Of a stretch of 64,000 nt of DNA, positions 2,909 through 49,342 are shown one piece after another. The notes beneath the pieces are model-generated. The model had not been told where the DNA came from, ran no database searches, and saw nothing but the letters and a program-made list of their open reading frames with translations. Each line of letters opens with the position of its first letter. The first letter of the stretch is position 1. The stretch spans positions 62,001 to 126,000 of the forward strand of contig CALWSL010000002.1 in NCBI GenBank assembly GCA_944384205.1. Direction: 5' to 3'. A program made the translations under genes and the position numbers. Origin of the DNA: an uncultured Acetatifactor sp. Its GTDB lineage: Bacteria > Bacillota > Clostridia > Lachnospirales > Lachnospiraceae.

Positions 2909-4267
2909 CTAATTATTCAAGTCTCCACCATAGTAACCATCCCAGTAATAATAAGTTCCATCATATGTTATCACCTGCTTCGAGCCATCCGAAAATTCTA
3001 CTGTTGCAGATATAGGTTTCATAGCTGCTGTAGTAGAATTATATATTACAGCTTCCCACAGAATATTATTCTTTACCTCTCCTGGATCAATAGGTCCGGT
3101 ATACTCAAGATTCACTATACTAGTATCTCTAATAGAACACTCAGCTGGATTACCCATTCTATCATAATATTTCATTTGGAAAGTGACATATGCTATTTGC
3201 TTATCCGATATATTTTTAAAACTAATAGCAGTGTCAACTCCTCCTACAAAATTTATATCTGTATTTGTTCTTAGTAAGCTTATTGAAGCTTTAGATATTA
3301 CTACCTCAATATCTCCAACTTCCTCCACGCTCTTAAAAATTCCAGTAACATTTTGAGTAGTTTGCAAAAATTTAGTTTCTCCATTTAAACGGCATTCATC
3401 AACATCCCCATAATCATAAGAGATGCTAATATTAATTCCCATTTCTTCAAATTTTTTTCTTATCGTATCTTCTGTAGTATCAACAAAACTGCCATTATAG
3501 TCTGGCAACTTAATTCCTTCACCAGAACTCACATATAAAGTAACTACATCATTTTCTCCATATTTTTTAGGAGCATACTTATAAACGATGCCTGCTTCTT
3601 CCGAATTAAACATTTCCAAAATATTATAATTAATATTATTCTCTTCAAACACATTAATTGCATCTTCTCTTGTCATCCCCTTCACATCAGGTACCATTTT
3701 ATATATACCTTCACTGACTGTTATCAGCAGCTCTTCTTCTGATGTGATAATCTCTCCTGCATTGCCAGACATTGAAATAACTATATCCTTTTCGATGTCA
3801 TCTGTATATTCATATACAATTTCATGAGGTAATGCTAATTCCAATTCTTTAATATTTTTTCCAATAATCTCCGGAATAATATACTGTTTTCCCAAACTCA
3901 CATGTAATATTACTTCTCTGCCTAAATTAATACTATAGGGTGCAACACTTTGTTCATATACAGTATCTTTCTCATACTCAAAAGAATAATCATATTCCAC
4001 ACTATAACTTACATTCCGTCTATCCAATAAATTTATTGCTTCATCGATACTTTTTCCTACCACACTTATCATGTGATAATTACCATAAAAAATCCCAAAA
4101 CAGATACATATTAAAATAGATAAAACAATACAACTAACTGCTATTATTTTCCGTTTCGGAAAAATAATGTTACTTTTTTTTCTCTGAAGTTTATAACCAC
4201 AATTAATACATACCTTTGCAGTATCCGATATCTCTTTTCCACATTCAGGACAATTTATTAATGCCAT
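2909..4267 (-). CDS. Zinc-ribbon / single-pass membrane / PASTA-repeat protein
   Basis: 452 residues. The N-terminus carries a zinc-ribbon (Cys6, Cys9, Cys20, Cys23), then a basic stretch and one membrane helix (about 41-61). After it come three or four PASTA-like repeats (for example VVGKSIDEAINLLDRRN, IPEIIGKNIKELELALP, VPDVKGMTREDAINVFEENN) and a C-terminal beta-rich domain (about 335-452). PASTA repeats normally bind peptidoglycan fragments on Ser/Thr kinases or PBPs, but no kinase domain is present here, so this looks like a kinase-less wall sensor or adaptor. The gene is monocistronic, with its own terminator and an unusual 5' leader. It is more AT-rich than its neighbours. Function not known to me. 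Confidence 0.8.
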   Translation of the reverse strand: MALINCPECGKEISDTAKVCINCGYKLQRKKSNIIFPKRKIIAVSCIVLSILICICFGIFYGNYHMISVVGKSIDEAINLLDRRNVSYSVEYDYSFEYEKDTVYEQSVAPYSINLGREVILHVSLGKQYIIPEIIGKNIKELELALPHEIVYEYTDDIEKDIVISMSGNAGEIITSEEELLITVSEGIYKMVPDVKGMTREDAINVFEENNINYNILEMFNSEEAGIVYKYAPKKYGENDVVTLYVSSGEGIKLPDYNGSFVDTTEDTIRKKFEEMGINISISYDYGDVDECRLNGETKFLQTTQNVTGIFKSVEEVGDIEVVISKASISLLRTNTDINFVGGVDTAISFKNISDKQIAYVTFQMKYYDRMGNPAECSIRDTSIVNLEYTGPIDPGEVKNNILWEAVIYNSTTAAMKPISATVEFSDGSKQVITYDGTYYYWDGYYGGDLNN

Positions 4268-8702: not shown

Positions 8703-10292
8703 TTACAGCGGAAGTGATTTTACATCCCCATCAACAACTTCAAATCTGCAATAGTGATACGTATTTTGAATCACTGTAGATAAATCTCCTATAACAATCG
8801 TTGTGCCGGGATGAACTTCTCCCCTTACAACAACCCTTGCCTTATTTTTAAAATCAAACAGACTGTGAAGCCTGAGCATTTCATTGTTCTTTTTTTCCAG
8901 CTCCGCTTTCTGCTGTTCAATTTTTCCAGCCGTTTCTCTCACATACTTTATCTGTTCCTCAGTAAATCTTGCGCCTTTCGCACGCTTTTCCGCAAATCCC
9001 ACCAAAATTGTCTGATTTGCCTTAATTGTTTTCACAAGCTCTGCAACGTCCTTCTGAAGCTGCGTATACGTCATCTTCACCTTGGGATCCGCGCCGACTT
9101 CAACAATCGTGGATGCCCCCATGAGAGCCCCCAGCGTCTTAACGGTAATCTGACTGCCAGCCTGTACGTGCCCGCCGGTAATAAATCCTCTCTTACCGGT
9201 TACTTCAATTTCCGTACCTGCGGTTACATTGCTGTGAAGGATTGAGCCGGTATTAATATATCCCTTTGCTTCCACGGTAGCGTTCTCGATAAATTTGGAA
9301 ATCACATTGCCGCCCGCCTTTAAGATTCCCTTGGACATACCGTTTACGCCTCTGGCAATCACAATATTGCCGCCGGCATAAATCTGTGCGCCTTCCACAA
9401 CGCCATTGATAATAACATTACCGCCTGCATTCACCACAAAGTTGGAGGATACATTCCCGTTAATCTGAACACTTCCGGTGTACTCAATATTACCGGTTGA
9501 GGTATCTACATTCTCTACCTGATAAACATCGGATACGAATACCTCATTATCAACAAGAATAACATGTCCGTCTACCATGGAACTGATACTTAAACCATCC
9601 TCGGATAACTGAATATTTTTACCATGCCTGAGTTTCAAGCGTTTCGGCACCCTGGGAGCCAATGGTTTCCCAAAAATATTGAATCCGCTTTCTCCGTCTT
9701 CTCCACGAATAATCCGTGCAAGAACGTCCCCTTTCTTGCAGTGGTTAATCATATTCAAATTATAATAATCTACCGTTCCGTCCTCGCGCTGTTCCGGTTT
9801 TGCCTGGACATCCGTATTAAAATAATACTCAATTTTGTCATCCACACCCTGCTTCGGTTCTTTCCCTTTTGCCACAATCAAATCGGTGCAAAAATAGTCT
9901 GTTGACATAAAATGATTCTGCAGCGTCTGCATTTGCACACCCTTCACAATATTGCGAATACGAAGAGCATTAATAACCTCGCTGAGATTAAGCCTGCCGC
10001 CCGTCTCGGACGGTGGGTAAAAGCGCATCGTCGCAACCATATTATCGCTGCTTACATTCAACTGATATTTTTCATTTACAACAGGACATTCATCCACCCC
10101 GAGAAAGCAAACCTGAGTTGTTTTTTCCTCAATTGCCTTCTTCAGCGTAGCAATATCGCAGTTAATATTTTCGTCATCTAAATAATGCAGTAATTCGCCA
10201 ATGCCGATTTCCTCTCCTCCATCAACCGGTGGAATCAGTTTAATACCAAATCCGCCAGGCGCTTTCACTAATTGAAAATAGCCGTTCTGCAT
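8703..10292 (-). CDS. FapA-family (DUF342) polymer-forming protein of the flagellar operon
   Basis: 529 residues. The N-terminal ~170 residues form the variable domain. They are followed by a glycine-rich beta-helix region with repeating turns (NAGGNVIINGVVEGAQIYA, AGGNIVIARGVNGMSKG, AGTEIEVTGKRGFITGGHVQ). A coiled-coil stretch (about 405-475) and a short C-terminal beta part come last. DUF342/FapA proteins are found near fliA in many Firmicutes operons and can influence polar or envelope processes, but the biochemical role is not settled. It lies 40 bases downstream of fliA. Confidence 0.85.
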   Translation of the reverse strand: MQNGYFQLVKAPGGFGIKLIPPVDGGEEIGIGELLHYLDDENINCDIATLKKAIEEKTTQVCFLGVDECPVVNEKYQLNVSSDNMVATMRFYPPSETGGRLNLSEVINALRIRNIVKGVQMQTLQNHFMSTDYFCTDLIVAKGKEPKQGVDDKIEYYFNTDVQAKPEQREDGTVDYYNLNMINHCKKGDVLARIIRGEDGESGFNIFGKPLAPRVPKRLKLRHGKNIQLSEDGLSISSMVDGHVILVDNEVFVSDVYQVENVDTSTGNIEYTGSVQINGNVSSNFVVNAGGNVIINGVVEGAQIYAGGNIVIARGVNGMSKGILKAGGNVISKFIENATVEAKGYINTGSILHSNVTAGTEIEVTGKRGFITGGHVQAGSQITVKTLGALMGASTIVEVGADPKVKMTYTQLQKDVAELVKTIKANQTILVGFAEKRAKGARFTEEQIKYVRETAGKIEQQKAELEKKNNEMLRLHSLFDFKNKARVVVRGEVHPGTTIVIGDLSTVIQNTYHYCRFEVVDGDVKSLPL

Positions 10293-10332
10293 TGTTTACC
10301 TCCCCATACCTTTCCTGATAAGCTTATCCTTC

Positions 10333-11106
10333 TCACCCGTCTGTCAGTATGCCCATATAATTTCCCATTTTACCCTTCATCTTCTGTAATGCCCTGGTAT
10401 GTAACTGTGAAACTCTGGACTCAGACACTTCCAAGACATTGCTGATTTCTTTCAGTGTCAGTTCTTCATAATAATATAAGGTAATTACCTTTTTCTCCTT
10501 CTCGGTTAGAAGCTCCAACGCCTCCCCCAATACTTTACATAATTCTTCTTTCTCTATGCGCTCCTCAGGGCTTTCAAATCTTGCAGTAATATGTCTGCTG
10601 TAATCCTGCGACACGTCGCTGCCCTGCTCCATATACTCATTCAAAGACACCAGACCGGTTATTTTTATCTGAGACTGCCAGTCCATATATTCATCTTCTG
10701 AAATTCCCAGCCCTCTTGCAATTTCTTCTTCTGTTGCACTATGTCCCGTTGAAAGCTCTATTTCCTTTATAACAGCCTCAATTTTCTTCTGCTTCTGTCT
10801 GATTGTTCTGGGAATCCAGTCCATTTTTCTTATCTGATCCAATATGGCTCCACGGATTCTGAGACTGGCATAAGTCTCAAACTTTACCTCCTTGAAGCAG
10901 TCAAATTTATCAATCGCATCTATCAGCCCAAAAATGCCATAGCTTACCAGATCATCATATTCCACGTTATAGCCCAGATACATACTGAGCCGCCCCGCCA
11001 CGACCTTTACAAGAGGGGCATATTCTAATATGATTTTTTCACGGATTTCAGAATCTTTTGTCTTCGCGTATCCTTCTAATAATTTTCTTCTGCCCGCTTC
11101 ATCCAT
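10333..11106 (-). CDS. fliA: Flagellar RNA polymerase sigma factor (SigD/FliA)
   Basis: 257 residues with sigma regions 2, 3 and 4: NVEYDDLVSYGIFGLIDAID, RIRGAILDQIRKMDWIPR (the FliA/WhiG hallmark), and the C-terminal helix-turn-helix LTLKEISNVLEVSESRVS. It directs late flagellar, motility and chemotaxis genes after hook completion. As in Bacillus subtilis it is near the 3' end of the fla/che operon, where its level depends on distance from the promoter. I see no anti-sigma factor flgM in the window. Confidence 0.96.
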   Translation of the reverse strand: MDEAGRRKLLEGYAKTKDSEIREKIILEYAPLVKVVAGRLSMYLGYNVEYDDLVSYGIFGLIDAIDKFDCFKEVKFETYASLRIRGAILDQIRKMDWIPRTIRQKQKKIEAVIKEIELSTGHSATEEEIARGLGISEDEYMDWQSQIKITGLVSLNEYMEQGSDVSQDYSRHITARFESPEERIEKEELCKVLGEALELLTEKEKKVITLYYYEELTLKEISNVLEVSESRVSQLHTRALQKMKGKMGNYMGILTDG

Positions 11107-11142
11107 GAAGATTATCTACACCCTCTTTCTCTCCTGTTCCGA

Positions 11143-11415
11143 TTACCTTTTTGTACCCTTCTTGTCTTCCGGTGTTTCTCTCCCGTCTTCTCCTTCGTTT
11201 CCGGTTACTTCCCCTTCTTCTTCGTTCTTCTCATTCTGTGCATCAAAATAATCGAGCGTCCATTTGAGCAGACTTCCCAAAAAATAAAAAAGTATCAAAA
11301 CAACCAGCAATGAAACCAGCTTACTTATCACAGAATAATGGTTTATAAATGTAATGACGCAGGTAACTGCTCCAGCCACCAGCATCAAAATCAAAGGTAT
11401 ATTCTTTCTATTCAT
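11143..11415 (-). CDS. Small two-helix membrane protein between cheD and fliA
   Basis: 90 residues: two hydrophobic helices (about 6-24 and 30-53) and a hydrophilic Glu/Gly/Lys-rich tail (NEKNEEEGEVTGNEG). It starts 11 bases after cheD, and a ribosome-binding site is present (GAGGT). I do not recognise a family. Position suggests co-expression with chemotaxis genes and fliA; function unknown. Confidence 0.65.
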   Translation of the reverse strand: MNRKNIPLILMLVAGAVTCVITFINHYSVISKLVSLLVVLILFYFLGSLLKWTLDYFDAQNEKNEEEGEVTGNEGEDGRETPEDKKGTKR

Positions 11416-11426
11416 ATCAACCTCTG

Positions 11427-11912
11427 TCAGATTATCGTTTCGTTTCTTCCCACGGCACGAATATGAAATTCTCCCGTCTCCGGGAAAAAAGTAACTGTCC
11501 GTCCGTAATTTTCACCTGTATCCTTTGCAAGAATCGGAATCTTTAACTCCTGCAGCTTTGCTTCTGTCGCCTCTACATTGCGGCGCCCCACCTGAACAAC
11601 ATCCGAACGGTTAGCCATAAACATAGCAGCGCCGCCTGCAATTTTGGCGACGATTCTGCTTCTTTTTGCACCGAGCTTCTCCATTTGAAGGATCAGTTCC
11701 TCTATGCCCGTATCTGCAAATTTGGCGACATTCTGATTGGCATTCCGGATTGCAGTACTGTCAGGAAGCATGATATGCGCCAGACCGCCTATCTTAGTCA
11801 CCGGATCCCGCAGGGCAATTCCAACACAGGAACCAAGCCCCAGGGTCGTTACGCCGTCAGGACTTACACAGGTCTTTAAATCTGCCATTCCCACCTTTAT
11901 AATTTCGCTCAT
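11427..11912 (-). CDS. cheD: Chemoreceptor glutamine deamidase CheD
   Basis: 161 residues, normal length. The catalytic cysteine Cys29 in TLGLGSCVGIALRD and His46 in GGLAHIMLP are present. It deamidates receptor glutamines and, in the Bacillus-type system, binds CheC and stimulates its CheY-P phosphatase activity. The cheC gene lies directly upstream. C-terminal GRRNVEATEAKL and GGRTVTF-like core (here YGRTVTFFPETGE) match the family. Confidence 0.96.
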   Translation of the reverse strand: MSEIIKVGMADLKTCVSPDGVTTLGLGSCVGIALRDPVTKIGGLAHIMLPDSTAIRNANQNVAKFADTGIEELILQMEKLGAKRSRIVAKIAGGAAMFMANRSDVVQVGRRNVEATEAKLQELKIPILAKDTGENYGRTVTFFPETGEFHIRAVGRNETII

Positions 11913-11944
11913 AGACTATATCCTTCTTCTACTAAAGTAAAATT

Positions 11945-12568
11945 CTACTCCATAGGTATTCCCAAAGATGTGAGAATCTTAGAATAGGATTCCAAATCAG
12001 GTATTAAGATAAAATAGCCGTCAATCTCTACTTCATCATAAAACTGAGACTGAATCAAAAGAAGATTGTCCCCTAAAGTGCCAAACTCAATAGCAGGTAC
12101 ACTAAGAATTGCGCCTGCCATATCCACCGTCAAATCAGGCGGAGAGGGATATATCTTCAAATTTGTCAAAGTAGAGAGTGAATTCAGATATGCACCCGTA
12201 ATAATATTACCGACTTCCTTCATGGCAGATAATTCCATTTCAGAAAATCCGTCTCCTTCGGAAGCCATACCCATCATCATCTTGTTAATCAGATGTTTTG
12301 CGCATGCTGTCTCAATCAGAAACATCATACTCCCTGTGATATCTCCTTCCACTCCAAGGTAAACGCCCACCATAATCTGCTCTTCACCGCCCATCATGGC
12401 TCCGACATCAGAAAACGGCACAAGCCTTACCTGCGGAACTTTCATATCAACCTTACATTGGAGCATCTGGGAAAGTGCCGTCATGGCATTTCCCGCTCCG
12501 ATATTACCTATTTCCTTTAATATATCGTAATAATTCTGTGAGACTTGTTCCAAGCTCATTTCTCCCAT
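11945..12568 (-). CDS. cheC: CheY-P phosphatase CheC
   Basis: 207 residues with both phosphatase active-site motifs: Glu19/Asn22 in LKEIGNIGAGNAM and Glu118/Asn121 in MKEVGNIITGAYL. It dephosphorylates CheY-P in the cytosol and forms an adaptation module with CheD, encoded immediately downstream. It follows cheW by 17 bases. Confidence 0.95.
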   Translation of the reverse strand: MGEMSLEQVSQNYYDILKEIGNIGAGNAMTALSQMLQCKVDMKVPQVRLVPFSDVGAMMGGEEQIMVGVYLGVEGDITGSMMFLIETACAKHLINKMMMGMASEGDGFSEMELSAMKEVGNIITGAYLNSLSTLTNLKIYPSPPDLTVDMAGAILSVPAIEFGTLGDNLLLIQSQFYDEVEIDGYFILIPDLESYSKILTSLGIPME

Positions 12569-12585
12569 GGGGAATTCTCCTTTTT

Positions 12586-13077
12586 CTATGCGTTCTCTTC
12601 CAACGTAATAGAGTTCAAATCCAACAGTGAAATCAGGTCGCCGTTATGCTTTCCCACACCTGTGACAAAATTAACAGTGTTATCCTTGGAATCATAAGCC
12701 ACCTTTTCAATCTGTGTGGTTTCCAGCATCACAACTTCCTTCACTTCATCCACGATAATGCCAACATTACCCTGCTGCTCTGATTTGAGAATAATAATTC
12801 TTGTGGTTCTCGTAAATTCATCGGCAGGCAGTCCCATTTTCATACGGATACTCATCACTGGAATTACCTCGCCGCGAAGATTAATGACGCCCTTTAAATA
12901 AGCAGGCACCTTGGGAACTCTGGTGATATTCTGCATTTTTACAATATTGTCAATAAAACGGATATCTATTCCGAACTGTTCTTCTCCCAGACGAATTACA
13001 ATGTACTGAAACGACTCTACACTGGTCTTTGCATCTTCAACATTGCCAAGTTCATTTAACGCCTTAAGCTGATCCAT
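12586..13077 (-). CDS. cheW: Chemotaxis coupling protein CheW
   Basis: 163 residues with one CheW (SH3-like) domain: YIVIRLGEEQFGIDIRFID, VPKVPAYLKGVINLRGEVI, and VGIIVDEVKEV. It couples receptors to CheA. It has a ~25-residue N-terminal extension before the domain. It lies between cheA and cheC in the usual Clostridia order. Confidence 0.96.
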   Translation of the reverse strand: MDQLKALNELGNVEDAKTSVESFQYIVIRLGEEQFGIDIRFIDNIVKMQNITRVPKVPAYLKGVINLRGEVIPVMSIRMKMGLPADEFTRTTRIIILKSEQQGNVGIIVDEVKEVVMLETTQIEKVAYDSKDNTVNFVTGVGKHNGDLISLLDLNSITLEENA

Positions 13078-13096
13078 ACCGTTATCTCTCCCTTCC

Positions 13097-15172
13097 TTAA
13101 ATCAAAGCATTCGCATCAAGTATCAATGCGATTTCACCATCGCCAAGAATCGTCGCGCCGCTGATGAATTTACACTGCTTGATATATTTGCCAAGGGACT
13201 TGATAACGATTTCCTGCTGACCAATCAGCTCGTCAATGACCAGACCTGCCTGCTTATCTCCCTTCTTGACAATAACTACAATCAAATTCTCATCCTCGCT
13301 TCTTGTGCTTTCGATATCAAGCACCTTCGGCAGACGAATCAAAGGAATCACAGTACCTCTTAAGTTAATAACCTCTTTATTCTGTACCAGCTTAATCTCG
13401 CTGGGTGAAATATCCTCAAGTGTCTGAATCGATCCAAGGGAAATCGCATATTTTTCTCCGCCTACAACCACCATCAGCGCCTGAATAATCGCAAGAGTCA
13501 GAGGCAGACGGATAATCCATGTACTTCCCTCTCCCAGTTTTGTCTTAATCTCAACTTCCCCGCTTAAAGACTCAATCTTGGATTTTACCACATCCAGACC
13601 TACTCCTCTTCCGGAAACATCCGTTACCTTCTTAGCGGTTGAGAAGCTGGGCAGGAACAGCAGGTCAATAACCTCCTTATCGGTCATGTTTGCCGCCTGC
13701 TCCGGTGTAATCACACCTCTCTCAATCCCTTTATTTCTAACAGCCTCTATATCAATACCGTTGCCGTCATCGCCCACTTCAATCACAACGTTATTTCCAT
13801 CCTGATATGCGTTCAGGAAAATAGTTCCTACCGGCGGCTTTCCTCGCTGTGCACGCACCTCTGCCGACTCAAGACCATGATCTGCGGAATTGCGAAGCAA
13901 GTGCATCAGAGGGTCTCCGATTTCATCTACCACAGTACGATCCAGCTCTGTCTCCTCACCCGTCATGTAGAGTTCCATCTTTTTGCCCAATGACTTGGAA
14001 AGATCTCTAATCATTCGAGGGAACTTATTCACAACACTCTCAATCGGAACCATCCGGACCTTCATAACGGATTCATGCAGGTTTGTGGTCACACTCTCCA
14101 GATATTCAATCTGCTCATTAAAACCTGCGTTCTTTTCCCGTTCCTGATTGGATGCAGATACCAGAGAGTTCTTTGCAATAATCAGCTCGCTTACCAGATT
14201 CATCAGCACATCCAGCTTCTCAATATCTACACGGACTGTACGGTTTACTACAGGCTTGCCGGGGGTCTGCTTCTTCTCTGCCGTTTTTGCGGCTGCCTGC
14301 GGCTTGCTCTCTGCCACTGCTGTCTTTTTGTCGTCAGAAACGGACCTGTCGCTTTCCTCAATAGGGTGATAATTCCTGGTATTTTCCAATACCAGCTCCG
14401 CACCTGTCACCTTTGCGATTTCAGAAACAGATTCCGCAGCTTTAATAATATCGTCTACCGTTCCGTCAGACACAACAATCAGCGTAAAATCTCTGTCAAA
14501 TCTCTCATCCTCCACATCCTGCGCGCTCGGATTAGATACAATGATTTCACTCTTTTCTTCCACTGCCTTGAAAACAAGGAAAGCTCTTGCAGCTTTCAGG
14601 ATACAGCTATCCTGAATTACTACATTCACACCATATACTTTCTTTCCCATCTTCTTAGCTTCGGTCAGAACCCGTATCTGGCTGTGATCCAGCGCAATAT
14701 CATTCCACTTCTCATCGGAAGAGCTTTCTGCTGCTGCCTCTATGCTCGCCTTCTTTACCTCCGGCTGCGGAGCTGCGGGCGCACCTCCTGCGCCATTAAG
14801 AATATCATTCAACTGCTTTATCAACACTTCATTATCATTGGTTCCTTCGTCTGCAGTCTGCTGGATATTGTTATTGTACTCCTCCAGTGCATCCAGACAT
14901 TTAAAAAGCACGTCAATCATCTCGGGCTGTACTTTGATATTACCGGTACGAACCTCAGAGAACACATTCTCCATGTCATGAGTCAGGTTCTGCATTCTCT
15001 TATAACCCATGGTTCCTGCCATACCTTTTAAGGAATGTGCTGCACGGAAGATTTCATTAATCGTATCCATGTTCTCAGGATCGGATTCAAGCTCCAGAAT
15101 CTGCGTGTTCAGCGTCTGTAAGTGTTCTTTTGTTTCATCCAGGAAAATTTCAAGATATTGGCTAACGTCCAT
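13097..15172 (-). CDS. cheA: Chemotaxis histidine kinase CheA
   Basis: About 691 residues in the order P1 to P5. P1 HPt contains phospho-acceptor His46 in FRAAHSLKGMAGTMG, followed by a CheY-binding P2-like region and the P3 dimerisation helices (VDIEKLDVLMNLVSELIIAK). P4 ATPase has the N box LLRNSADHGLE and G boxes GDDGNGID and GRGVGLDVV; the CheW-like P5 closes the protein. I place the start at 15172 because the GGAGG at the in-frame ATG at 15184 is itself the ribosome-binding site for the second ATG. Confidence 0.97.
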   Translation of the reverse strand: MDVSQYLEIFLDETKEHLQTLNTQILELESDPENMDTINEIFRAAHSLKGMAGTMGYKRMQNLTHDMENVFSEVRTGNIKVQPEMIDVLFKCLDALEEYNNNIQQTADEGTNDNEVLIKQLNDILNGAGGAPAAPQPEVKKASIEAAAESSSDEKWNDIALDHSQIRVLTEAKKMGKKVYGVNVVIQDSCILKAARAFLVFKAVEEKSEIIVSNPSAQDVEDERFDRDFTLIVVSDGTVDDIIKAAESVSEIAKVTGAELVLENTRNYHPIEESDRSVSDDKKTAVAESKPQAAAKTAEKKQTPGKPVVNRTVRVDIEKLDVLMNLVSELIIAKNSLVSASNQEREKNAGFNEQIEYLESVTTNLHESVMKVRMVPIESVVNKFPRMIRDLSKSLGKKMELYMTGEETELDRTVVDEIGDPLMHLLRNSADHGLESAEVRAQRGKPPVGTIFLNAYQDGNNVVIEVGDDGNGIDIEAVRNKGIERGVITPEQAANMTDKEVIDLLFLPSFSTAKKVTDVSGRGVGLDVVKSKIESLSGEVEIKTKLGEGSTWIIRLPLTLAIIQALMVVVGGEKYAISLGSIQTLEDISPSEIKLVQNKEVINLRGTVIPLIRLPKVLDIESTRSEDENLIVVIVKKGDKQAGLVIDELIGQQEIVIKSLGKYIKQCKFISGATILGDGEIALILDANALI

Positions 15173-15203
15173 CTTATCCTCCATTCCGCCGCATGCGGCA
15201 ATT

Positions 15204-16292
15204 TTATCGTTTGATTGTTAATCCAACGTGCAAAATAATTTCCTGTGCAATCTGTTCCAGAGGAACCACCTGATCGGAAAGCCCAGCCAAAGCCACGCTT
15301 CTCGGCATCCCGTAAACAGTAGAGCTCTCCTGATCCTGTGATATTACATGCACTTTCTTCTTTGCTTTGAGATTTCTGATTCCCTCTGTGCCGTCTGCGC
15401 CCATACCGGTCATAATAGTACAGATAATATTATCAAAACTACTGTCTGCCAAAGATTCATACATATAATTAGCACACGGTTTTACGCCTTCTCTGGTCGG
15501 CTCATCCGTATAGTGAATCAGATACCTGCCGCCGGACGACCTTTTTACATTCATGTGACTGCCGCCCATTGCCAGATACACAATACCCTTTTGCAGCTCA
15601 TCACCCTCCGCTGCCTCTTTCACGGTAATCTCGCTTAAGGAGTTGAGACGTTCCGCAAAGGATGCCGTAAAGCCTTTCGGCATATGCTGTACAATCAGTA
15701 CCGGTGCATCCAAATCTGCCGGCAGCCTCGGTACTACCGACTGCAGTGCCTTGGGTCCCCCCGTTGAGCTCGCAATCGCAACTATCTTGTTTCCCGGAAC
15801 GCTGACCGTATGCTTCTTGACAATATTCAGCATCTGACCTGTGGTTTTTCTGTCTGCCTGAATTTTTTCATAGGATTCAAAGACAGGCGGTTTGCTTTCC
15901 GCAACGACAGCCAGAATACGGAGTAAATCTTCCCGAAAACTTTCCTCCCTGCAATCAATTGCATTATGCGGTTTATGTATGAAATCCAGGGCACCCAGTT
16001 CCAGAGCATCCAGTGTTATTTTAGCTCCTTCCCTGGTGTCTGTACTTGCCATCATTACCCGGGCGGATATCTTATATTTCCGCAATTCCTTCAGAAGCTC
16101 CAGACCATTCATCTTCGGCATGTTCACATCCAGAACCACAGCATCATAAGTATTCCTGCTAAGTAAATCCAAGGCTTCCAGACCATTTGTCGCTTTTGCA
16201 ACTACCTGAAATCTCTTATCACTATTGATTATATCACAAAGCACTCTTCTCATAAGTGCAGAGTCGTCAACCACCAATATTTTTTTTGCCAT
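15204..16292 (-). CDS. cheB: Chemotaxis response regulator / glutamate methylesterase CheB
   Basis: 362 residues: a receiver domain with phospho-acceptor Asp55 (VVLDVNMPKMNG), a linker, and the methylesterase domain with the catalytic triad Ser175/176 in ASSTGGPKAL, His203 in VQHMPKGFT and Asp300 in TGMGADG. It removes methyl groups from chemoreceptors during adaptation. No cheR is visible in this window, so the methyltransferase must be elsewhere. Confidence 0.97.
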   Translation of the reverse strand: MAKKILVVDDSALMRRVLCDIINSDKRFQVVAKATNGLEALDLLSRNTYDAVVLDVNMPKMNGLELLKELRKYKISARVMMASTDTREGAKITLDALELGALDFIHKPHNAIDCREESFREDLLRILAVVAESKPPVFESYEKIQADRKTTGQMLNIVKKHTVSVPGNKIVAIASSTGGPKALQSVVPRLPADLDAPVLIVQHMPKGFTASFAERLNSLSEITVKEAAEGDELQKGIVYLAMGGSHMNVKRSSGGRYLIHYTDEPTREGVKPCANYMYESLADSSFDNIICTIMTGMGADGTEGIRNLKAKKKVHVISQDQESSTVYGMPRSVALAGLSDQVVPLEQIAQEIILHVGLTIKR

Positions 16293-16322: not shown

Positions 16323-17051
16323 TTACGATAGGCGCTCCTTCTTACGCTCGTTGCGCTCCTCTTCAAAGATAAATTTTATAATTTTTTCTCTTATCTTTTT
16401 GTCAAGATTGTAATATTGTACACGATGCTCATAGGTTCCCGGACGATTTTCTGCTTCCCTCACCGATAGCACCTTGCCCACAACCTCATATTCCTTTCGC
16501 TCTTTCTCCATACAAAGCTGATATTTGCAATAAACCAGACTATCCGGCTCATATTTCTGTTCTGACAAAAATCGGAATCCTCCGCCGCTGATATCCACAA
16601 TAATACTGCGTTTTAAAGGTAAACCCGCCTGCAAAGTATATGATGTCTGCTGCTCGATTGCATTGACCTCTTCCTCCTCCAGACTTCGGGTGCGCATCTC
16701 TAATGCACAGCTGAAACGGTAAAATTCTCTCCTCTGATATTTTCTCAGGTTACTGGTAAGCTCTACCAGCAACAAAAACACATTATTGCTTTTATACCGG
16801 TCTGTTACACGGGCAAAGCATTGGTATAATCCGGTTGCACCGTAAATAACCAGCTCATACTCGCTATCCACCGGCAAAAGTATCAGCTTTGTATTCTCCA
16901 TAGGCATGATAATTTCCATCGTATCATCTGACAATACTACATGCACGTCGCTGGAATACACCTTCTGGCTGTTATCTAACTGTTCTCCCCATCCTTTATC
17001 AATAGATCTCAATTCAATTTTATCCCCGGTTGACACAAATTTTGATAACAT
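16323..17051 (-). CDS. YcgR/MotI-type PilZ c-di-GMP receptor
   Basis: 242 residues: an N-terminal YcgR-like beta domain (about 5-105) and a C-terminal PilZ domain with both c-di-GMP-binding motifs, the RxxxR element (RREFYR) and DISGGG (D/NxSxxG). The family (YcgR, Bacillus MotI/DgrA) slows or disengages the flagellar motor when c-di-GMP is bound. The ATG at 17051 has GGAG 8 bases upstream and is preferred to the GTG at 17060. Its place between flhG and cheB in the operon links c-di-GMP to motility, and two cyclase genes lie just upstream of the operon. Confidence 0.9.
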   Translation of the reverse strand: MLSKFVSTGDKIELRSIDKGWGEQLDNSQKVYSSDVHVVLSDDTMEIIMPMENTKLILLPVDSEYELVIYGATGLYQCFARVTDRYKSNNVFLLLVELTSNLRKYQRREFYRFSCALEMRTRSLEEEEVNAIEQQTSYTLQAGLPLKRSIIVDISGGGFRFLSEQKYEPDSLVYCKYQLCMEKERKEYEVVGKVLSVREAENRPGTYEHRVQYYNLDKKIREKIIKFIFEEERNERKKERLS

Positions 17052-17078
17052 ACACTTCACTCCACATCCTGTTACTGT

Positions 17079-42103: not shown

Positions 42104-42173
42104 CATCTTTTTCTAAATTTGTGACAAAATACTCAATTTGGTATGGCAGAAATATTTTATTTAGAAACAAACA

Positions 42174-42203
42174 AAGGATCTATTGACTAAACAATAAATC
42201 CTT
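42174..42203 (-). terminator. Terminator of codY
   Basis: On the minus strand a 12-base-pair stem (arms 42192-42203 and 42174-42185, one G-U pair) with a six-base loop is followed by U-rich sequence (UGUUUGUUUC). It separates codY from the fla/che operon. Confidence 0.65.
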
Positions 42204-42255
42204 TTATCGTAACATCCCGTTCAATTCATAATATATGCAGCTTTAATACACTCAA

Positions 42256-43044
42256 TTATCCTCTTTGATTCCGGCGTTTCAATTCTTCTATCTCATCAAA
42301 AACCACATCGTTAAGCACCTTAATATAGGTACCCTTCATTCCCGACGAACGCGATTCAATCACCCCGGCGCTTTCAAACTTTCTAAGGGCATTCACGATT
42401 ACCGAACGGGTAATACCAACGCGGTCTGCAATTTTACTGGCAACAAGAATGCCTTCCATGCCGTTCAACTCGTCAAAAATATGGGTAATCGCTTCCATCT
42501 CCGAGAAGGAAAGCGTACTGATTGCAGATTTTACAACGGCTATCTTGCGATTCTCCTCCGCACTCTCTTCATTCACGGCACGCAGCATTTCCAGACCCAC
42601 CACGGAAGTTCCGTATTCACACAGAATAATATCGTCAATCTCATACTGTTCGTCACATTTGTAAATAAACAGTGTACCAAGACGCTCTCCCGCAATCTCT
42701 ATCGGGGTAATAATCGCCTGAAATCTCTTGGTATCAATATTCTCAAAACCCAGCGTACTCAGATTCACATTTTCCTTGGTTGACAATATTCCGAGCAGTC
42801 TCTCATTCAGCATACTGTCAATAAAGCCGCCTACATTCTCATCAATCAGCTCCGTAATTTCTTCAATGCTATCCGATTTTGCGATGCCAAGAACTTTTCC
42901 CTTGCGGCTGATTACCAGTACATTGGAATCCAGTATCTCCCGCATCACGTTACAGATATCATTAAACACAACCTTGCTGGAATTATTGTTGTGCAGCAAT
43001 TTCCCGATTTTTCTGGTTTTGTCTAATAGTTGAACACTGCTCAT
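42256..43044 (-). CDS. codY: Global nutritional regulator CodY
   Basis: 262 residues from the ATG at 43044, which has GGAGGGG upstream; the frame is open 18 codons further, but without a site. An N-terminal GAF domain binds branched-chain amino acids, and the C-terminal winged helix-turn-helix has ASKIADRVGITRSVIVNALR and KFESAGVIESRSSGMKGTYI. CodY senses branched-chain amino acids and GTP and represses many genes in good nutrition. Its location directly upstream of flgB is the same as in Bacillus subtilis. Confidence 0.97.
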   Translation of the reverse strand: MSSVQLLDKTRKIGKLLHNNNSSKVVFNDICNVMREILDSNVLVISRKGKVLGIAKSDSIEEITELIDENVGGFIDSMLNERLLGILSTKENVNLSTLGFENIDTKRFQAIITPIEIAGERLGTLFIYKCDEQYEIDDIILCEYGTSVVGLEMLRAVNEESAEENRKIAVVKSAISTLSFSEMEAITHIFDELNGMEGILVASKIADRVGITRSVIVNALRKFESAGVIESRSSGMKGTYIKVLNDVVFDEIEELKRRNQRG

Positions 43045-43096: not shown

Positions 43097-43125
43097 ATTT
43101 TACCACAAAAGAAATCAGATTACAA
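43097..43125 (-). promoter_or_regulatory. Promoter of codY
   Basis: Minus-strand -35 TTGTAA (43120-43125), 17-base spacer, -10 TAAAAT (43097-43102). It lies in the 136-base gap between the GGDEF gene and codY. Confidence 0.55.
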
Positions 43126-43180: not shown

Positions 43181-45112
43181 TTATACACACTCATTTTTCT
43201 TTTTCTTCTTGTTTCTATACATTATGTCGTCTGCCATATTAATATACTGTTCCACAGTGTCGCCTGATTTTGGGAAAAAAACATCATATCCATAACTGGC
43301 ACTAATCCGATACTCCTTCCCTGAATCCCGGTTTGCCTGTGCCATCAGCTCTTCCAGCTTTTGACAGTAGGCAGCCGCATCCTCCTTCGTGTAGTTCTCG
43401 GCGCAGACAACAAATTCATCACCGCCGATACGGGCACAGATTTCTCCCCCTCTGCACGCACCCTGCAGGGCATGTGCAACTTCCCAAATTGCCGCATCCC
43501 CACTGTCATGTCCGAATTTATCATTAATCTGTTTCAAGTCATCCAAATCCGCAAACAAAACCATAAAAGAGTTTCCCTGTCTGATACATCTGCTGAAGCT
43601 GTCTTTTGTATACCGGATTAATCCGGAGCGGTTATATAGATCAGTTTGGGAATCCAACACATACATCCTGTCAAGCCGTTCCACCATATTCCTCAAATGC
43701 GCCTGTTTTCTGAGGCTTTCCAACCCATTGGATAAATGAATCAGCCATGTGCCGAAAAGAGGACTGCTCATCGCAAATTTACTGTTATCCACTATAACGT
43801 ATCCCATACAGCGGTCTCTGAAATGAATGGGAGAAAACACATAATTGTGTGCTGCGCCCTTCGTTTCACACCCATCCGGCAGCATCCGTACAGAAGGAAA
43901 TTCTCCGCCCCGGAAAAATTCACCTTTTTTATAGGATAAAACTGCCGTCATTGTCTGCGGATAGCCTTCTGTCCGATAATTGTCATGAAACGCCCCCTCC
44001 CTGCATTCCGCATCCGCAGACTGCAGATCCTCTACTATTTCCTTGTCCAGACACAAATAAAAGCTCTCACAGTCAAGTCCTGCTACATGAGGCTTCAATC
44101 GCTCCAGAAAATCCCCGAAGGATTTACTGTCGTTTAACTCCTCTATCATCATAATACTGTTAAATAAATATCTTTCATAATGCTCTGCTTTCCCCAGATA
44201 TTCTCTTCGCAGAGATGTGATATCATCTTGTTCCTCACTGCTGCAGCCGCAGCTTTCCCTGAAAATGGGGGTTGCCGAAAACCGTTCTTTCTTCGGTACC
44301 GCCTCCCCGTTATGCAGCCTTTCAATTCTCCGAACCGCCTCGCGCCCCACAAGATTCTGATTGCGTGATACCGTTGTAAGGGGCGGTCTGGCATTTCTCG
44401 CCTCAAAATTATTATCAAAACCGGTTAAAGCCACCTGCAGGGGTATTTTCAGTCCGCTTTCGTCAAATACGCTCCATACTCCAATGGCAATACTGTCAGA
44501 CGCACAGACCACTGCTTCCGGCATTGTCTGAGGAGTCTCCAGCATCTTCGCCGCTGCCTCCCTGCCGTGCAAAGTGGTTAAGGTCCCCTTAAAGATCCGT
44601 TTTTCCTCCACTGCAATGCCATGCTCCCGCAAAGCATCACGGTACGCCCGCAGACGCTCCGCGCTGTCAGAATTAAAGTCCTGCCCGGAAACATAATTTA
44701 TTTTGGTAAATTTGTGGTGTTCGATTAGATGCTCCACAATTGCTTTCATAGGCGTATACTTCTCTACACCCACAAAATAAAACCCCTCTATTTCCGAATC
44801 AATGCTGACAGCCGCAACGCCCGAGCTTCTGATCTGTTCTATCACACTGCGATAGACGGTATTGCTCTGAATCAGATTGGCAAACAAAATTACTCCGTCA
44901 AACATGGCATAATCCACCAGATTGTAAATATTATATTCTCCAATATTATGCTTCACCGTCTTGTCCGTACCTGCTTCTGCATTGAAGATATAAATATCCG
45001 TCCGGCAGGCGGCAGCCTCTTCCATAATTCCTCTCAGAGTCTCGGACGCATATTCCACGCTCATACTCGCCAGTATCACAGCTATTTTTCGTCTTTCATC
45101 ACTCTTCTCCAT
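43181..45112 (-). CDS. LacI-type sensor / GAF-like / GGDEF diguanylate cyclase (second of pair)
   Basis: 643 residues, soluble with no signal peptide or membrane helix. Residues about 8-285 match a LacI/GalR periplasmic-binding-like domain (GREAAAKMLETPQTMPEAVV, ALTGFDNNFEARNARPPLTT), but there is no DNA-binding helix-turn-helix. SCGC (287-290) and a coiled coil lead into a middle GAF-like domain (about 330-465). The C-terminal GGDEF domain has FADLDDLKQINDKFGHDSGD and an intact RIGGDEF (563-567), with an inhibitory-site-like RGGE at 554-557 (RxxD changed to RxxE). Likely a ligand-controlled c-di-GMP synthase. It starts 23 bases after its paralog. Confidence 0.9.
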   Translation of the reverse strand: MEKSDERRKIAVILASMSVEYASETLRGIMEEAAACRTDIYIFNAEAGTDKTVKHNIGEYNIYNLVDYAMFDGVILFANLIQSNTVYRSVIEQIRSSGVAAVSIDSEIEGFYFVGVEKYTPMKAIVEHLIEHHKFTKINYVSGQDFNSDSAERLRAYRDALREHGIAVEEKRIFKGTLTTLHGREAAAKMLETPQTMPEAVVCASDSIAIGVWSVFDESGLKIPLQVALTGFDNNFEARNARPPLTTVSRNQNLVGREAVRRIERLHNGEAVPKKERFSATPIFRESCGCSSEEQDDITSLRREYLGKAEHYERYLFNSIMMIEELNDSKSFGDFLERLKPHVAGLDCESFYLCLDKEIVEDLQSADAECREGAFHDNYRTEGYPQTMTAVLSYKKGEFFRGGEFPSVRMLPDGCETKGAAHNYVFSPIHFRDRCMGYVIVDNSKFAMSSPLFGTWLIHLSNGLESLRKQAHLRNMVERLDRMYVLDSQTDLYNRSGLIRYTKDSFSRCIRQGNSFMVLFADLDDLKQINDKFGHDSGDAAIWEVAHALQGACRGGEICARIGGDEFVVCAENYTKEDAAAYCQKLEELMAQANRDSGKEYRISASYGYDVFFPKSGDTVEQYINMADDIMYRNKKKKKNECV

Positions 45113-45135
45113 GGCAATACACCGTCTTTCTTCTA

Positions 45136-47067
45136 TCAGTGCAAACGATCCGCATTCTTTTTTGCATTTTTCTTTTTATACATTTGCTTATCGGCTTTAT
45201 CAATATATTTATCTATCGTTTCCCCGGGCAGGGGGACAACTATCTCATAACCAAAGCTTACGCAAATAAGGAAGGGCTGTCCCAGACTGCTGTTGTAATT
45301 TGCCAGCGCCCTGACGAAACGCTCACAGAAAGCTTCCGCTTTTTCTTCATCATAATCCGCCCCGTAAACCACATACTCATCTCCGCCAAAACGGGCACAG
45401 ATTTCTTCCCCCGTACAGGCTTCCTTCAAAGCATCCGCCACCGTCTTAATCGCGATATCACCGCTGTCATGACCAAACTTATCATTAATCCGCTTCAGCC
45501 CATCCAAATCAGCAAACAGTACCATCATCCGCCTTTTTTCTTCCACACAGCGCACAAAGCTTTCCTTTGTATATCTGGCAAATCCCAAGCGGTTATACAA
45601 ATCCGTAAGGAAATCCACCACATACAGTCTGTCCAGACGGTCCAGCATACATTTCAGCTTCACCTGCTTGTGCAGATTTTCCAACCCGTTGGAAAGATTA
45701 ATCAGCCACGTCCTGAAAAGAGGACTTGTCATTACATATTCACTGTTTTCTATCACCACATAGCCCTGACAGACGTCCCTGAAATGAACCGGTGCAAAAA
45801 TATAGGTATGATTTCCGTCCGGCACATCGCGCTGCCACGGAAGCATCCAGCCGGAAGAAAAATCCTCATATTCCACAAATGCGCCAAACTCATAGGCAAG
45901 CGGTACCGCCATCACAGACGCATACCCATTGTATCTGCGCTCATCTCTGATTTTCCTGCAATGGTAAATCTCGTCCGGCTGTTTCAAATCCTCCGCCAGC
46001 TCTTTGTCCAGACAAAAATAAAAGCGGTCACATTGAAGCGCCGCCACATAGTATTTTAAACGGCTGATAAAATCATCAAATGTTTTACTGTCATTTAAAT
46101 CCTCAATCATAATATTGCTTTCCAACAGATGCTTTTCGTAATGATTCACCATACTGACATATCTCTGACGGATACTGTCCAATTCATTATCTTCCTTGCA
46201 TTCGCAGCCGCAGCTTCCGGCAAAAACAGGAACCGCAGGAAACACTTCACTTTCGGAAGGATGCTCCCCGTCCAGATGACCTTTTATCTTTCGCACCGCT
46301 TCCCTGCCGACATTCTTAAGATCCCTGTCAACCGTAGTAAGCCTTGGCACCGAGTGTCTCGCCTCAAACATATTATCAAAGCCCGATACCGCAATCTGCT
46401 CCGGCATGCTGATTCCCTGCTCCCTGAGCACACTGCAGAAGCCCAGCGCAATTCCGTCATTTCCGCAGACCACAGCCTGGGGAAGCTCCTCCCCGGAAGA
46501 AAGAAGCTCCTTCGCCACTTCCCTGCCATGCTGACTGGTAAAGGTCCCCGGAAAAATCCGTTTCTCTTCCACCGGAATACCATGCTCCCGCAGGGCGTCA
46601 CAATACGCCCGCAAGCGCATCTGACTGTCCGTATTATAGGATTGACCCGATATGTAATCAATTTTGGTGAACTTGTGATACTCAATAAAATGTTCTACAA
46701 TATCCTTCATGGACTGATAGTTTTCAACGCCTACACAATAATGCTTCCCCATAGGCGCATCTATGCCGACAACCGGAATCTCAACATTCTCCAGCCGTTT
46801 TTCCATCGTATGATATATCTCACGTCCCTGAATCAGGTTTGAAAACACAATCACACCGTCGAATCTGTCCAGATTTGCCAGCGTGAAAATATTATATTCG
46901 CCGATATTGTGTTTTAACGTTTCATCCATACTTACATACGCGTTAAAAATATAAACGTCAAATTGATTCCGCTTTGCTTCACTTATAATTCCTCTTTGAA
47001 TTTCTGCGGCATATTCCACATCCATATTCGTTGTGATAACAGCGATTTTTCTTTTATTGTACCCCAT
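45136..47067 (-). CDS. LacI-type sensor / GAF-like / GGDEF diguanylate cyclase (first of pair)
   Basis: 643 residues, same length and domain order as its downstream paralog. LacI-type sensor (about 6-283, with LPQAVVCGNDGIALGF and AVSGFDNMFEARHSVPRLTT), Cys motif SCGCEC (285-290), GAF-like middle region, then a GGDEF domain with FADLDGLKRINDKFGHDSGD and GGDEY (561-565), the Tyr variant that is still compatible with activity. The inhibitory site is lost here (TGEE at 552-555). The two proteins are tandem duplicates that have diverged in the sensor. A CodY box lies upstream. Confidence 0.9.
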   Translation of the reverse strand: MGYNKRKIAVITTNMDVEYAAEIQRGIISEAKRNQFDVYIFNAYVSMDETLKHNIGEYNIFTLANLDRFDGVIVFSNLIQGREIYHTMEKRLENVEIPVVGIDAPMGKHYCVGVENYQSMKDIVEHFIEYHKFTKIDYISGQSYNTDSQMRLRAYCDALREHGIPVEEKRIFPGTFTSQHGREVAKELLSSGEELPQAVVCGNDGIALGFCSVLREQGISMPEQIAVSGFDNMFEARHSVPRLTTVDRDLKNVGREAVRKIKGHLDGEHPSESEVFPAVPVFAGSCGCECKEDNELDSIRQRYVSMVNHYEKHLLESNIMIEDLNDSKTFDDFISRLKYYVAALQCDRFYFCLDKELAEDLKQPDEIYHCRKIRDERRYNGYASVMAVPLAYEFGAFVEYEDFSSGWMLPWQRDVPDGNHTYIFAPVHFRDVCQGYVVIENSEYVMTSPLFRTWLINLSNGLENLHKQVKLKCMLDRLDRLYVVDFLTDLYNRLGFARYTKESFVRCVEEKRRMMVLFADLDGLKRINDKFGHDSGDIAIKTVADALKEACTGEEICARFGGDEYVVYGADYDEEKAEAFCERFVRALANYNSSLGQPFLICVSFGYEIVVPLPGETIDKYIDKADKQMYKKKNAKKNADRLH

Positions 47068-47105: not shown

Positions 47106-47111
47106 ATTATA
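47106..47111 (-). promoter_or_regulatory. -10 box upstream of the GGDEF pair
   Basis: A perfect minus-strand TATAAT 40 bases before the start codon at 47067. No good -35 is present at 16-18 bases upstream (only A/T sequence), which suggests a weak or activated promoter. Confidence 0.5.
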
Positions 47112-47143
47112 ACATATATTTTTTTAAATTTATACTATTTTCT

Positions 47144-47158
47144 TATTTTCCGAAAATT
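47144..47158 (-). promoter_or_regulatory. Candidate CodY box
   Basis: Minus strand AATTTTCGGAAAATA, matching the CodY consensus AATTTTCWGAAAATT at 13 of 15 positions, and almost fully palindromic. It lies roughly 45-50 bases upstream of the predicted transcription start of the GGDEF pair and between that and the topA terminator. The codY gene itself is two genes downstream. Confidence 0.6.
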
Positions 47159-47163
47159 CTCAC

Positions 47164-47199
47164 AAAAATCGCCGGCATTTTTGTAATTTGCCGACGATT
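47164..47199 (-). terminator. Terminator of topA
   Basis: On the minus strand an 11-base-pair G/C-rich stem (arms 47189-47199 and 47167-47177, one G-U) with an 11-base loop is followed by U residues. It begins about 11 bases after the topA stop. Confidence 0.8.
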
Positions 47200-47209
47200 C
47201 CCAAAAAAT

Positions 47210-49288
47210 TTATTTATCCGTTACAGTCTGTCTGCTCTGTACAAACCCACACTGCGCATCCATGCAGACTAACTTATTGCCTTTTTCCAGCAGAGGAGAA
47301 CCGCATTTCGGACAGTTCTCTCCCGAAGGCTTCTGCCATATCATGAAATCGCATTCCGGATTATTGATACAGCCGTAATATTTTCTGCCTTTCTTCGTCT
47401 TTTTTAATACAATGTCTTTTCCGCACTTCGGACAGGCAACTCCTATTTTTTCAAAATAAGGCTTGGTATTCCGGCAGTCGGGAAATCCCGGACATGCCAG
47501 AAAACGCCCGTGAGGACCGTACTTAATTACCATATTTCGCCCGCACAGTTCACAGACTTCTTCGGAGACTTCATCCTCAATGGTAACCTCAGCCAGTTCC
47601 TTCTCCGCGGTCTTAACAGCCTCATCCAAATCAGGATAAAAGTTTGACACCACCGTTTTCCACTTCACGTCGCCTTCCTCGACACCGTCGAGAAGCGCCT
47701 CCATATTCGCAGTGAAATTCACATCCACAATACTGGGAAATGCTTCCTTCATCATATTGTTGACCACTTCTCCAAGCTCCGTCACATAGAGATTTTTATT
47801 TTCCTTTGTCACATAACGCCTTGCAAGAATTGTAGTAATGGTAGGCGCATAGGTACTGGGGCGCCCGATTCCCAGCTCTTCCAGCGCTCTTACCAGGGAA
47901 GCCTCCGTATAATGTGCGGGAGGCTGTGTAAAATGCTGCTTCGGATCAAAAGAAAGGAATTCCAATACCGTGTCCCGGTTCAGTTCGCCGGAAAGAACAT
48001 TTTCCTCCTCCCTGTCATCCTCCTGAATATATACGCTCATAAAACCGTCAAAGGAAAGCTTGGAAGCAGCAGTAGTAAATATCTGATCCGCCGCCTGAAT
48101 TCTCACGGAAACCGTCTCATATTTCGCAGGGCTCATACGGCTTGCCACAAAGCGTTTCCAAATTAACTGATACAGACGGAACAAATCTCTGGGAAGCTGC
48201 TCCTTAATTGCCACAGGAATACGGTTGATATCCGTAGGTCTGATCGCTTCATGGGCGTCCTGAATCTTCTGGCTGTTCTTTTTTTCCGCAGCGGCTTCCG
48301 CCTGATACCTCGCTCCGTAATGCTCTTCGATAAAGGTTTTTGCCATACTCTCCGCTTCTTCTGACACACGGGTGGAATCGGTACGCAAATAGGTAATCAG
48401 ACCGACAGTGCCCTCCCCCTTGATATCCACGCCTTCGTAGAGCTGCTGTGCCAGCCGCATTGTTTTCTGTGTGGAAAAATTCAGCACCTTGCTGGCTTCC
48501 TGCTGTAAGGTAGAGGTGGTAAACGGAAGCGGCGCTTTTTTGATACGCTCTCCGTGCTTCACCTCTGCAACTTTATAGTTGGCACCCTCTAAGGACGCCA
48601 TAACGGCATCTGCCTGCTCTTTATCAAAGATACCCTGCTTTTTATCCACAGTGCCGTAATATCTGGCGGTAATCGGTTTTCTTTCTCCTTTTACTTTCAG
48701 ATTTACATCCAATGACCAGTATTCCTCAGGGATAAAAGCGTTAATTTCCTCCTCCCTGTCGCAGATAATTCTAAGCGCAACAGACTGTACTCTGCCCGCA
48801 CTTAATCCTCTTTTAATCTTTGCCCACAAAAGCGGGGAAATCCGGTAACCCACCATACGGTCAAGAACACGGCGCGCCTGCTGCGCATCCACCAGGTTCA
48901 TGTTTATCTCCCGGGCATTCTTCAAGGATTCTTTTACCGCGTTTTTGGTAATTTCATTAAAAGTGATACGATATACCTTTTTATTCTCCAGCTTCAGCGC
49001 ATGGTACAGATGCCACGAAATCGCCTCTCCTTCACGGTCAGGGTCGGTTGCGAGATAAATTTTTTCCGCCTTTCTGACTTCCTTTCGCAGATTCGCCAGA
49101 ATGTCTCCCTTTCCCCTTATTGTAATATATTTCGGCTCATAATCATGCTCTACATCTATTCCAAGGCTGCTTTTAGGCAAATCCCTTACATGACCGTTGC
49201 TTGCCGCAACCTCATAATTTGCTCCCAAAAACTTCTTAATTGTTTTCATTTTCGCGGGTGATTCCACGATTACTAAATATTTCGCCAT
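47210..49288 (-). CDS. topA: DNA topoisomerase I
   Basis: 692 residues from the ATG at 49288 (MAKYLVIVESPAKMKTIKKF), preceded by AAGGGG. TOPRIM domain with the metal-binding DPDREGEAISWH, a catalytic Tyr about residue 300 in GLITYLRTDSTRVS, and three C-terminal four-cysteine zinc fingers (CELCGRNMVI..., CPKCGKDIVL..., CPKCGSPLLE...). It relaxes negative supercoils. In Bacillus subtilis dprA-topA lie directly together; here ispG, polC and a tRNA intervene. Confidence 0.98.
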   Translation of the reverse strand: MAKYLVIVESPAKMKTIKKFLGANYEVAASNGHVRDLPKSSLGIDVEHDYEPKYITIRGKGDILANLRKEVRKAEKIYLATDPDREGEAISWHLYHALKLENKKVYRITFNEITKNAVKESLKNAREINMNLVDAQQARRVLDRMVGYRISPLLWAKIKRGLSAGRVQSVALRIICDREEEINAFIPEEYWSLDVNLKVKGERKPITARYYGTVDKKQGIFDKEQADAVMASLEGANYKVAEVKHGERIKKAPLPFTTSTLQQEASKVLNFSTQKTMRLAQQLYEGVDIKGEGTVGLITYLRTDSTRVSEEAESMAKTFIEEHYGARYQAEAAAEKKNSQKIQDAHEAIRPTDINRIPVAIKEQLPRDLFRLYQLIWKRFVASRMSPAKYETVSVRIQAADQIFTTAASKLSFDGFMSVYIQEDDREEENVLSGELNRDTVLEFLSFDPKQHFTQPPAHYTEASLVRALEELGIGRPSTYAPTITTILARRYVTKENKNLYVTELGEVVNNMMKEAFPSIVDVNFTANMEALLDGVEEGDVKWKTVVSNFYPDLDEAVKTAEKELAEVTIEDEVSEEVCELCGRNMVIKYGPHGRFLACPGFPDCRNTKPYFEKIGVACPKCGKDIVLKKTKKGRKYYGCINNPECDFMIWQKPSGENCPKCGSPLLEKGNKLVCMDAQCGFVQSRQTVTDK

Positions 49289-49342
49289 TCTATTTCCCCT
49301 TAGCAATCTTCAGTTTACGTCAATACAAAGCAATCGTGGAAC

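Follow-up and report, generated by a model that had tools for sequence, protein, structure and literature searches.

The fusion of a LacI-like sensor to a GGDEF domain is an already catalogued architecture. A 2022 review lists the Peripla_BP/GGDEF combination and, in the available part of its text, states that the sensor domain also occurs in LacI regulators and possibly binds sugars, and places this LacI-like Periplas_BP sensor among the domains without experimentally validated roles (PMC8846402). Lcd1 also appears in this part of the review, as a cAMP-activated GAF1 cyclase (PMC8846402). A search of titles and the beginnings of abstracts, restricted to open-licence PMC text, returned no function for a LacI-type-sensor diguanylate cyclase in Lachnospiraceae; the available part of PMC6828939 describes a LacI regulator and a GGDEF-EAL protein encoded by separate genes, with no fusion, and those of PMC6912079 and PMC1183210 hold nothing specific. 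Here, we describe two tandem genes of this architecture, A and B, in a stretch of 64,000 nucleotides (the window) from an uncultured Acetatifactor sp., a gut-type Lachnospiraceae bacterium (contig CALWSL010000002.1), where they lie between topA and codY. Our preferred reading, to which we give about an even chance, is that a ligand in the cytosol regulates A and B, as soluble cyclases, through the LacI-type sensor, and that their cyclic di-GMP (c-di-GMP) is read by PilZ/YcgR proteins and tunes motility, perhaps under the control of CodY.

Gene A (45136..47067) and gene B (43181..45112) are both on the minus strand, comprise 643 codons each, and are spaced by 23 bases. Protein A consists of a LacI-type sensor (residues 1–284), an SCGC motif (285–288), a GAF region (about 289–483), and a GGDEF domain (484–640) with the motif GGDEY, as delimited from the open reading frame (ORF), Pfam, an AlphaFold2 (AF2) model, and structure matches. 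Protein B shares this architecture by sequence (ORF, Pfam, BLASTP) and carries the motif GGDEF. The two proteins are 52% identical end to end by BLASTP (sensor, 150/280; middle region, 84/181; GGDEF, 82/156). In both, the Pfam scores for Peripla_BP_3 and GGDEF are far above threshold, and no DNA-binding domain reached its cut-off; the N-terminal helix-turn-helix of LacI/GalR transcription factors was likewise absent above cut-off from both, and from the AF2 model of A (pLDDT 93.5), in which the first strand of the sensor is formed by residues 6–13. Structure matches to this model, obtained with VIA-align for the GAF region, revealed a type I periplasmic-binding-protein (PBP) fold at residues 5–288 and a GAF fold in the middle region. 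No Pfam GAF domain scored above cut-off in A, and among 51 family members there were two GAF_2 matches (best E 0.071), one GAF match (0.017), and one GAF_3 match (0.13). The fold evidence from the model covers the sensor and GAF of A, and the GGDEF assignment comes from Pfam. No signal peptide or membrane span was seen in either protein (Kyte–Doolittle maxima of 1.5 and 1.3 vs 2.7 for MotA). The sequence-only reading had described a duplicated, cytosolic pair of 643-residue LacI-sensor/GAF-like/GGDEF proteins without a DNA-binding domain and had asked for a structure prediction of the sensor; the description agrees with all of these data, and the PBP-like fold was recovered for A. Two plus-strand open frames antisense to A (window 45139–46059, 306 aa; 46129–46842, 237 aa) are most likely by-products of codon composition.

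The GGDEF domain (PF00990) scored 113 and 121.8 bits in the two proteins against a cut-off of 23.8. In an alignment of 66 family sequences, seven catalytic columns are invariant (66/66) and E564 is present in 65/66; the Y variant of the motif occurs in five sequences, A among them. The RxxD pattern of the inhibitory I-site, five residues before GGDEF, is found in neither A (TGEE) nor B (RGGE) and in only 3/66 members; this allosteric site is optional in diguanylate cyclases. The active-site motif is thus intact in both proteins, and A and B are probable diguanylate cyclases.

The sensor retains a LacI-type polar pocket, in line with the sugar-sensor fold proposed earlier. At the columns that we take to be the LacI ligand contacts, R151 and D231 are each conserved in 65/66 sequences, residue 115 is acidic in 54/66, N203 is kept in 58/66, and residue 176 is F or Y in 57/66. 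All three A orthologues have N at position 203, which matches N246 of LacI, and B orthologues carry S, T, or C there (S in the window); this suggests that the ligands of A and B differ. In sequence comparisons, the best match of the sensor was a LacI ancestor, followed by AscG and CcpA, ahead of PurR. The ligand is most likely a sugar-type small molecule. A PurR-like sensor for a purine, nucleoside, or other non-carbohydrate, by which the pair would report nucleotide or nitrogen state, would be in keeping with CodY next door; given that order of matches, and since some relatives adjoin solute-transport and amino-sugar-type genes, we consider it quite unlikely. The SCGC motif at the sensor end (46204..46215 in A and 44243..44254 in B, minus strand) is a further family feature, with S and both C in 64/66 sequences and G in 63/66, and is also present in both other LacI-GGDEF proteins of the genome.

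Profile searches of this genome matched 11 GGDEF, 6 EAL, and 3 PilZ domains, and four of the GGDEF proteins carry a LacI-type sensor: A, B, and one each on contigs C5 and C4. The C5 gene (L014 1489–3393; C5:47104–48981) encodes 635 aa, is about 25% identical to A, contains SCGC, and has a start (HKIAVFISHIYGEYQ) resembling that of relatives adjoining response-regulator and transport genes. The C4 gene (L015/L310, about 43271–46205) is an 801-aa frame with CSCGC. A partial GGDEF match (C6:97929–98090, 54/161 positions) lies in a 410-aa frame and is perhaps degenerate. Relatives were found in at least 57 of 101 genomes of the genus (E<=1e-60), many with several, and in at least 11 of 299 genomes of the family (E<=1e-100), the present genome being included in both; these counts are lower bounds because few candidates were scored per genome. 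The best 80 named-genome loci among the matches listed are mostly from Lachnospiraceae and Ruminococcus. LacI-GGDEF fusions are thus common in gut and rumen Clostridia.

The pair lies directly upstream of codY with flagellar genes beyond, as stated in the sequence-only reading. It is preceded by topA (47210..49306, minus strand, Pfam) and followed by codY (42256..43044, minus strand, Pfam; start estimated), whose ORF opens at 43098 and whose relatives begin at the MSSVQLL methionine. Among 121 codY loci of other genomes, topA directly precedes codY in 114, four hold other inserts (L211, L254, L286, L295), and in three the locus stops short of topA or none is visible (L083, L245, L281). The suggestion that the pair occupies the position of trmFO-xerC-hslVU is therefore rejected, because this junction is empty in 114 of the 121 loci read. 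The inserts are ORFs of 681 aa (L211) and 857 aa (L254), several ORFs of up to 1547 aa (L286), and short repeat-like ORFs only (L295). Across the loci read (53 match loci, 15 longer ones, and the 121 codY loci), a search for the same neighbourhood, which had been recommended, recovered the gene order in two other genomes, one of the three being from another genus, with the junction empty in most: in G255 the order is topA-A-B-codY-flgB, and in G097 it runs A-B-codY-flgB to the contig end, topA being absent from that contig.

The family tree placed the A genes in a single clade (100/100) and the B genes in another (99/96), which includes a singleton B-like gene of genome G305 (L067). The separate clades indicate that the duplication predates these genomes and that the pair has held or regained its site. 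In the family tree, G097 and G255 have B genes that cluster to the exclusion of the window's B, and a topA tree of 29 rows disfavoured the window and G255 as one group (p-AU 0.03, bootstrap not settled), the two being likewise apart in a quick tree of 118 rows. A single ancestral insertion in one clade is not supported by these groupings; transfer and loss are both candidate histories. All three genomes pair a single A orthologue with a single B orthologue in tandem at this site, and this arrangement, together with the consistent difference at the LacI N246 position, would fit an A–B heterodimer that integrates two ligands and has one regulatory subunit. However, the GGDEF motifs are intact in both proteins and G305 has a single B-type gene without A, and we regard such a heterodimer as unlikely.

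Between topA and A, three elements follow one another toward A. A hairpin with a T-run after topA (47164..47202, limits approximate, minus strand) is a likely intrinsic terminator; the fold of 47140–47215 has −22 kcal/mol (z −3.9, 0/200 shuffles as good), and the terminator scan of the window did not list it, its loop being too long for the scan. Next comes a CodY-box-like palindrome, TATTTTCCGAAAATT (47144..47158), with one mismatch to AATTTTCNGAAAATT, and then an extended −10-like element, TGTTATAAT (47106..47114, minus strand, read by eye); by eye, ATATGTTATAAT also precedes the A orthologue of L066. The CodY box consensus AATTTTCNGAAAATT and the autoregulation of codY are described for Firmicutes in the available part of PMC9318921. 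Of 2000 composition-matched Markov sequences, 0.15% contained a one-mismatch box, which puts the chance of one in this stretch at about 0.0015, and there are six such boxes in the genome and one in its reversed control. Boxes with at most two mismatches were found in 20/113 empty topA-codY intergenic regions vs 0.8 in shuffles (maximum 2 in 30), and in 2/100 codY-flgB regions vs 2.3 in shuffles, which is no excess; the box is upstream of the extended −10 in 6/7 cases having both. These patterns, with the promoter-like site that the window keeps just before codY, suggest insertion of the pair between the box belonging to codY and the codY core promoter. As the pair thus seems to lie between the ancestral autoregulatory box of codY and codY itself, its expression is possibly under CodY control. 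Elsewhere in the genome, another of the one-mismatch boxes (around position 1501 of L323, C19:37097) has a LacI-family regulator gene on one side and, downstream, a gene that by eye resembles glycogen phosphorylase.

A promoter-like site before codY (TTGTAA-17-TAAAAT with TG; 43097..43125, minus strand) and a terminator-like hairpin between codY and flgB (42173..42204, minus strand) came from scans that are weak evidence (27 promoter sites vs 14.4 expected; 8 terminators vs 5.7 expected). By eye, similar pre-codY sequence is present in L065, L066, and empty-junction loci such as L206, and T-run hairpins between codY and flgB in L065 and L066. A single transcription unit with topA or with the flagellar genes is not favoured, given the hairpin after topA and the terminator- and promoter-like sites around codY.

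The sequence-only reading tied the pair to motility, and two observations bear this out in part. The flagellar/chemotaxis cluster of the window contains a YcgR-type protein (16323..17060, minus strand) with PilZNR and PilZ domains and the patterns REFYR and DISGGG, presumably the c-di-GMP site; by Pfam and motif reading it is a predicted c-di-GMP receptor, and A and B probably signal to it among other receptors. In addition, a LacI-GGDEF gene 28% identical to A (L134) is found three small genes after a run of ycgR, cheB, cheA, cheW, cheC, cheD, a sigma-70-family gene, and fapA (cheA and cheC being named by similarity), and precedes genes for a phosphosugar mutase, a GntR/UTRA regulator, a member of the glucosamine-6-phosphate-isomerase family, and a phosphotransferase system (PTS) EIIC. 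Its placement (9968–15243) between the ycgR-che-sigma-fapA genes and amino-sugar/PTS-type genes hints at amino-sugar ligands. The C4 gene is followed after 46 bases by a PilZ gene on the same strand.

Another neighbourhood recurs in seven of the 80 named loci, where an AraC-type response-regulator gene adjoins the LacI-GGDEF gene or is two genes off (L114, L151, L154, L158, L174, L175, L181). A solute-binding-protein gene accompanies it in six of the seven; in five of them, genes for a sensor kinase or an ABC permease could also be confirmed. In L151, L154, L158, L174, L175, and L181 the LacI-GGDEF gene is convergent to the response-regulator gene, mostly with solute-binding-protein genes behind, which has the look of a recurring module. 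A c-di-GMP-I riboswitch search of the genome returned nothing, as did its control, so absence is not shown; Rfam found only a tRNA in the window at gathering scores. The window also encodes a zinc-ribbon and PASTA protein (2909–4267) near rpsB-tsf.

According to the preferred reading, the LacI-type sensors of A and B would each close on a different polyhydroxylated small molecule, most likely a sugar or its phosphate, and closure would be relayed to the GGDEF dimer by way of the SCGC junction, the GAF region, and a long helix, switching c-di-GMP synthesis. PilZ proteins, including the YcgR brake of the flagellar/chemotaxis cluster, would read the c-di-GMP, so that intracellular carbohydrate state may tune motility, with pair expression possibly set by CodY. 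A fuller version, which we think improbable, is a two-input nutrient-to-motility gate in which CodY, responding to branched-chain amino acids and GTP, would set cyclase amount via the captured codY box, two different intracellular sugars would set activity, possibly in an A–B heterodimer with a four-cysteine site built at the dimer axis from the SCGC motifs of both subunits, and YcgR would brake the flagella.

Several observations weigh against the preferred reading. Proteins of the window's flagellar cluster were matched in only 4/80 named loci, with L134 alone close by; the cheC-like and receiver genes of L133 are about 9 kb away, and L128 and L188 have ATPase-type matches that are possibly not flagellar. 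Ruminococcus flavefaciens, which is non-motile, carries close relatives among the best 80 named loci. The pair appears transcriptionally separate from the flagellar operon, is rare at this site (among the loci read, only in the present genome, G097, and G255), and in B departs from the LacI pocket at N246 (S) and at 176 (L). As for CodY, a recognisable box is missing from 93/113 empty junctions, and the other 20 are not independent, as some related genomes share one site. No box with at most three mismatches was found upstream of A in G255, and in G097 this region is off the contig. The other five one-mismatch boxes of the genome, three within ORFs and two intergenic, are unlike a classical CodY regulon, and the whole window has two boxes at up to two mismatches vs 0.97 expected. 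A rival account is that A and B are ordinary members of a lineage-expanded cyclase family whose position here is incidental, with an output in biofilm, polysaccharide, or adhesion and not in motility; topA-codY would then look like a permissive insertion site. The abundance of relatives in the genus, their presence in Ruminococcus, the four other inserts, and the hairpins parting the pair from topA and codY from flgB all agree with this account. On the other hand, the place is kept in three genomes, one of another genus, and in two orthologue clades, YcgR lies within the flagellar cluster, and L134 is a separate placement next to a che/ycgR cluster. We treat an incidental site as a distinct possibility that we would, on balance, not expect. 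Under the preferred reading, the pair fixed near codY and the flagellar cluster offers a concrete, testable case in which the carbohydrate state inside the cell could govern c-di-GMP and motility in these bacteria.

Among the closest known systems is the catalogued Peripla_BP/GGDEF combination, for which the available text of the review mentions no locus, pair, or CodY context (PMC8846402). As in Pseudomonas aeruginosa RmcA (SBP_bac_3, PBP clan), a binding-protein-type sensor would control c-di-GMP turnover, but that text lists RmcA among the phosphodiesterases and describes PBP-clan domains as periplasmic, whereas A and B have no membrane span, a type I fold, and a cyclase domain only (PMC8846402). 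With GAF-GGDEF cyclases such as Leptospira Lcd1, whose GAF is among the structure matches, A and B share the order GAF then GGDEF; they differ in the LacI-type sensor added in front and in a GAF too divergent for Pfam. With the LacI/GalR sensors CcpA, RbsR, LacI, and CelR, they share the type I fold (residues 5–288 in the model of A) and a pocket of Arg, Asp, an acidic residue, and mostly Asn, but A and B have no helix-turn-helix, carry an extra SCGC at the sensor end, and end in a GAF-GGDEF output.

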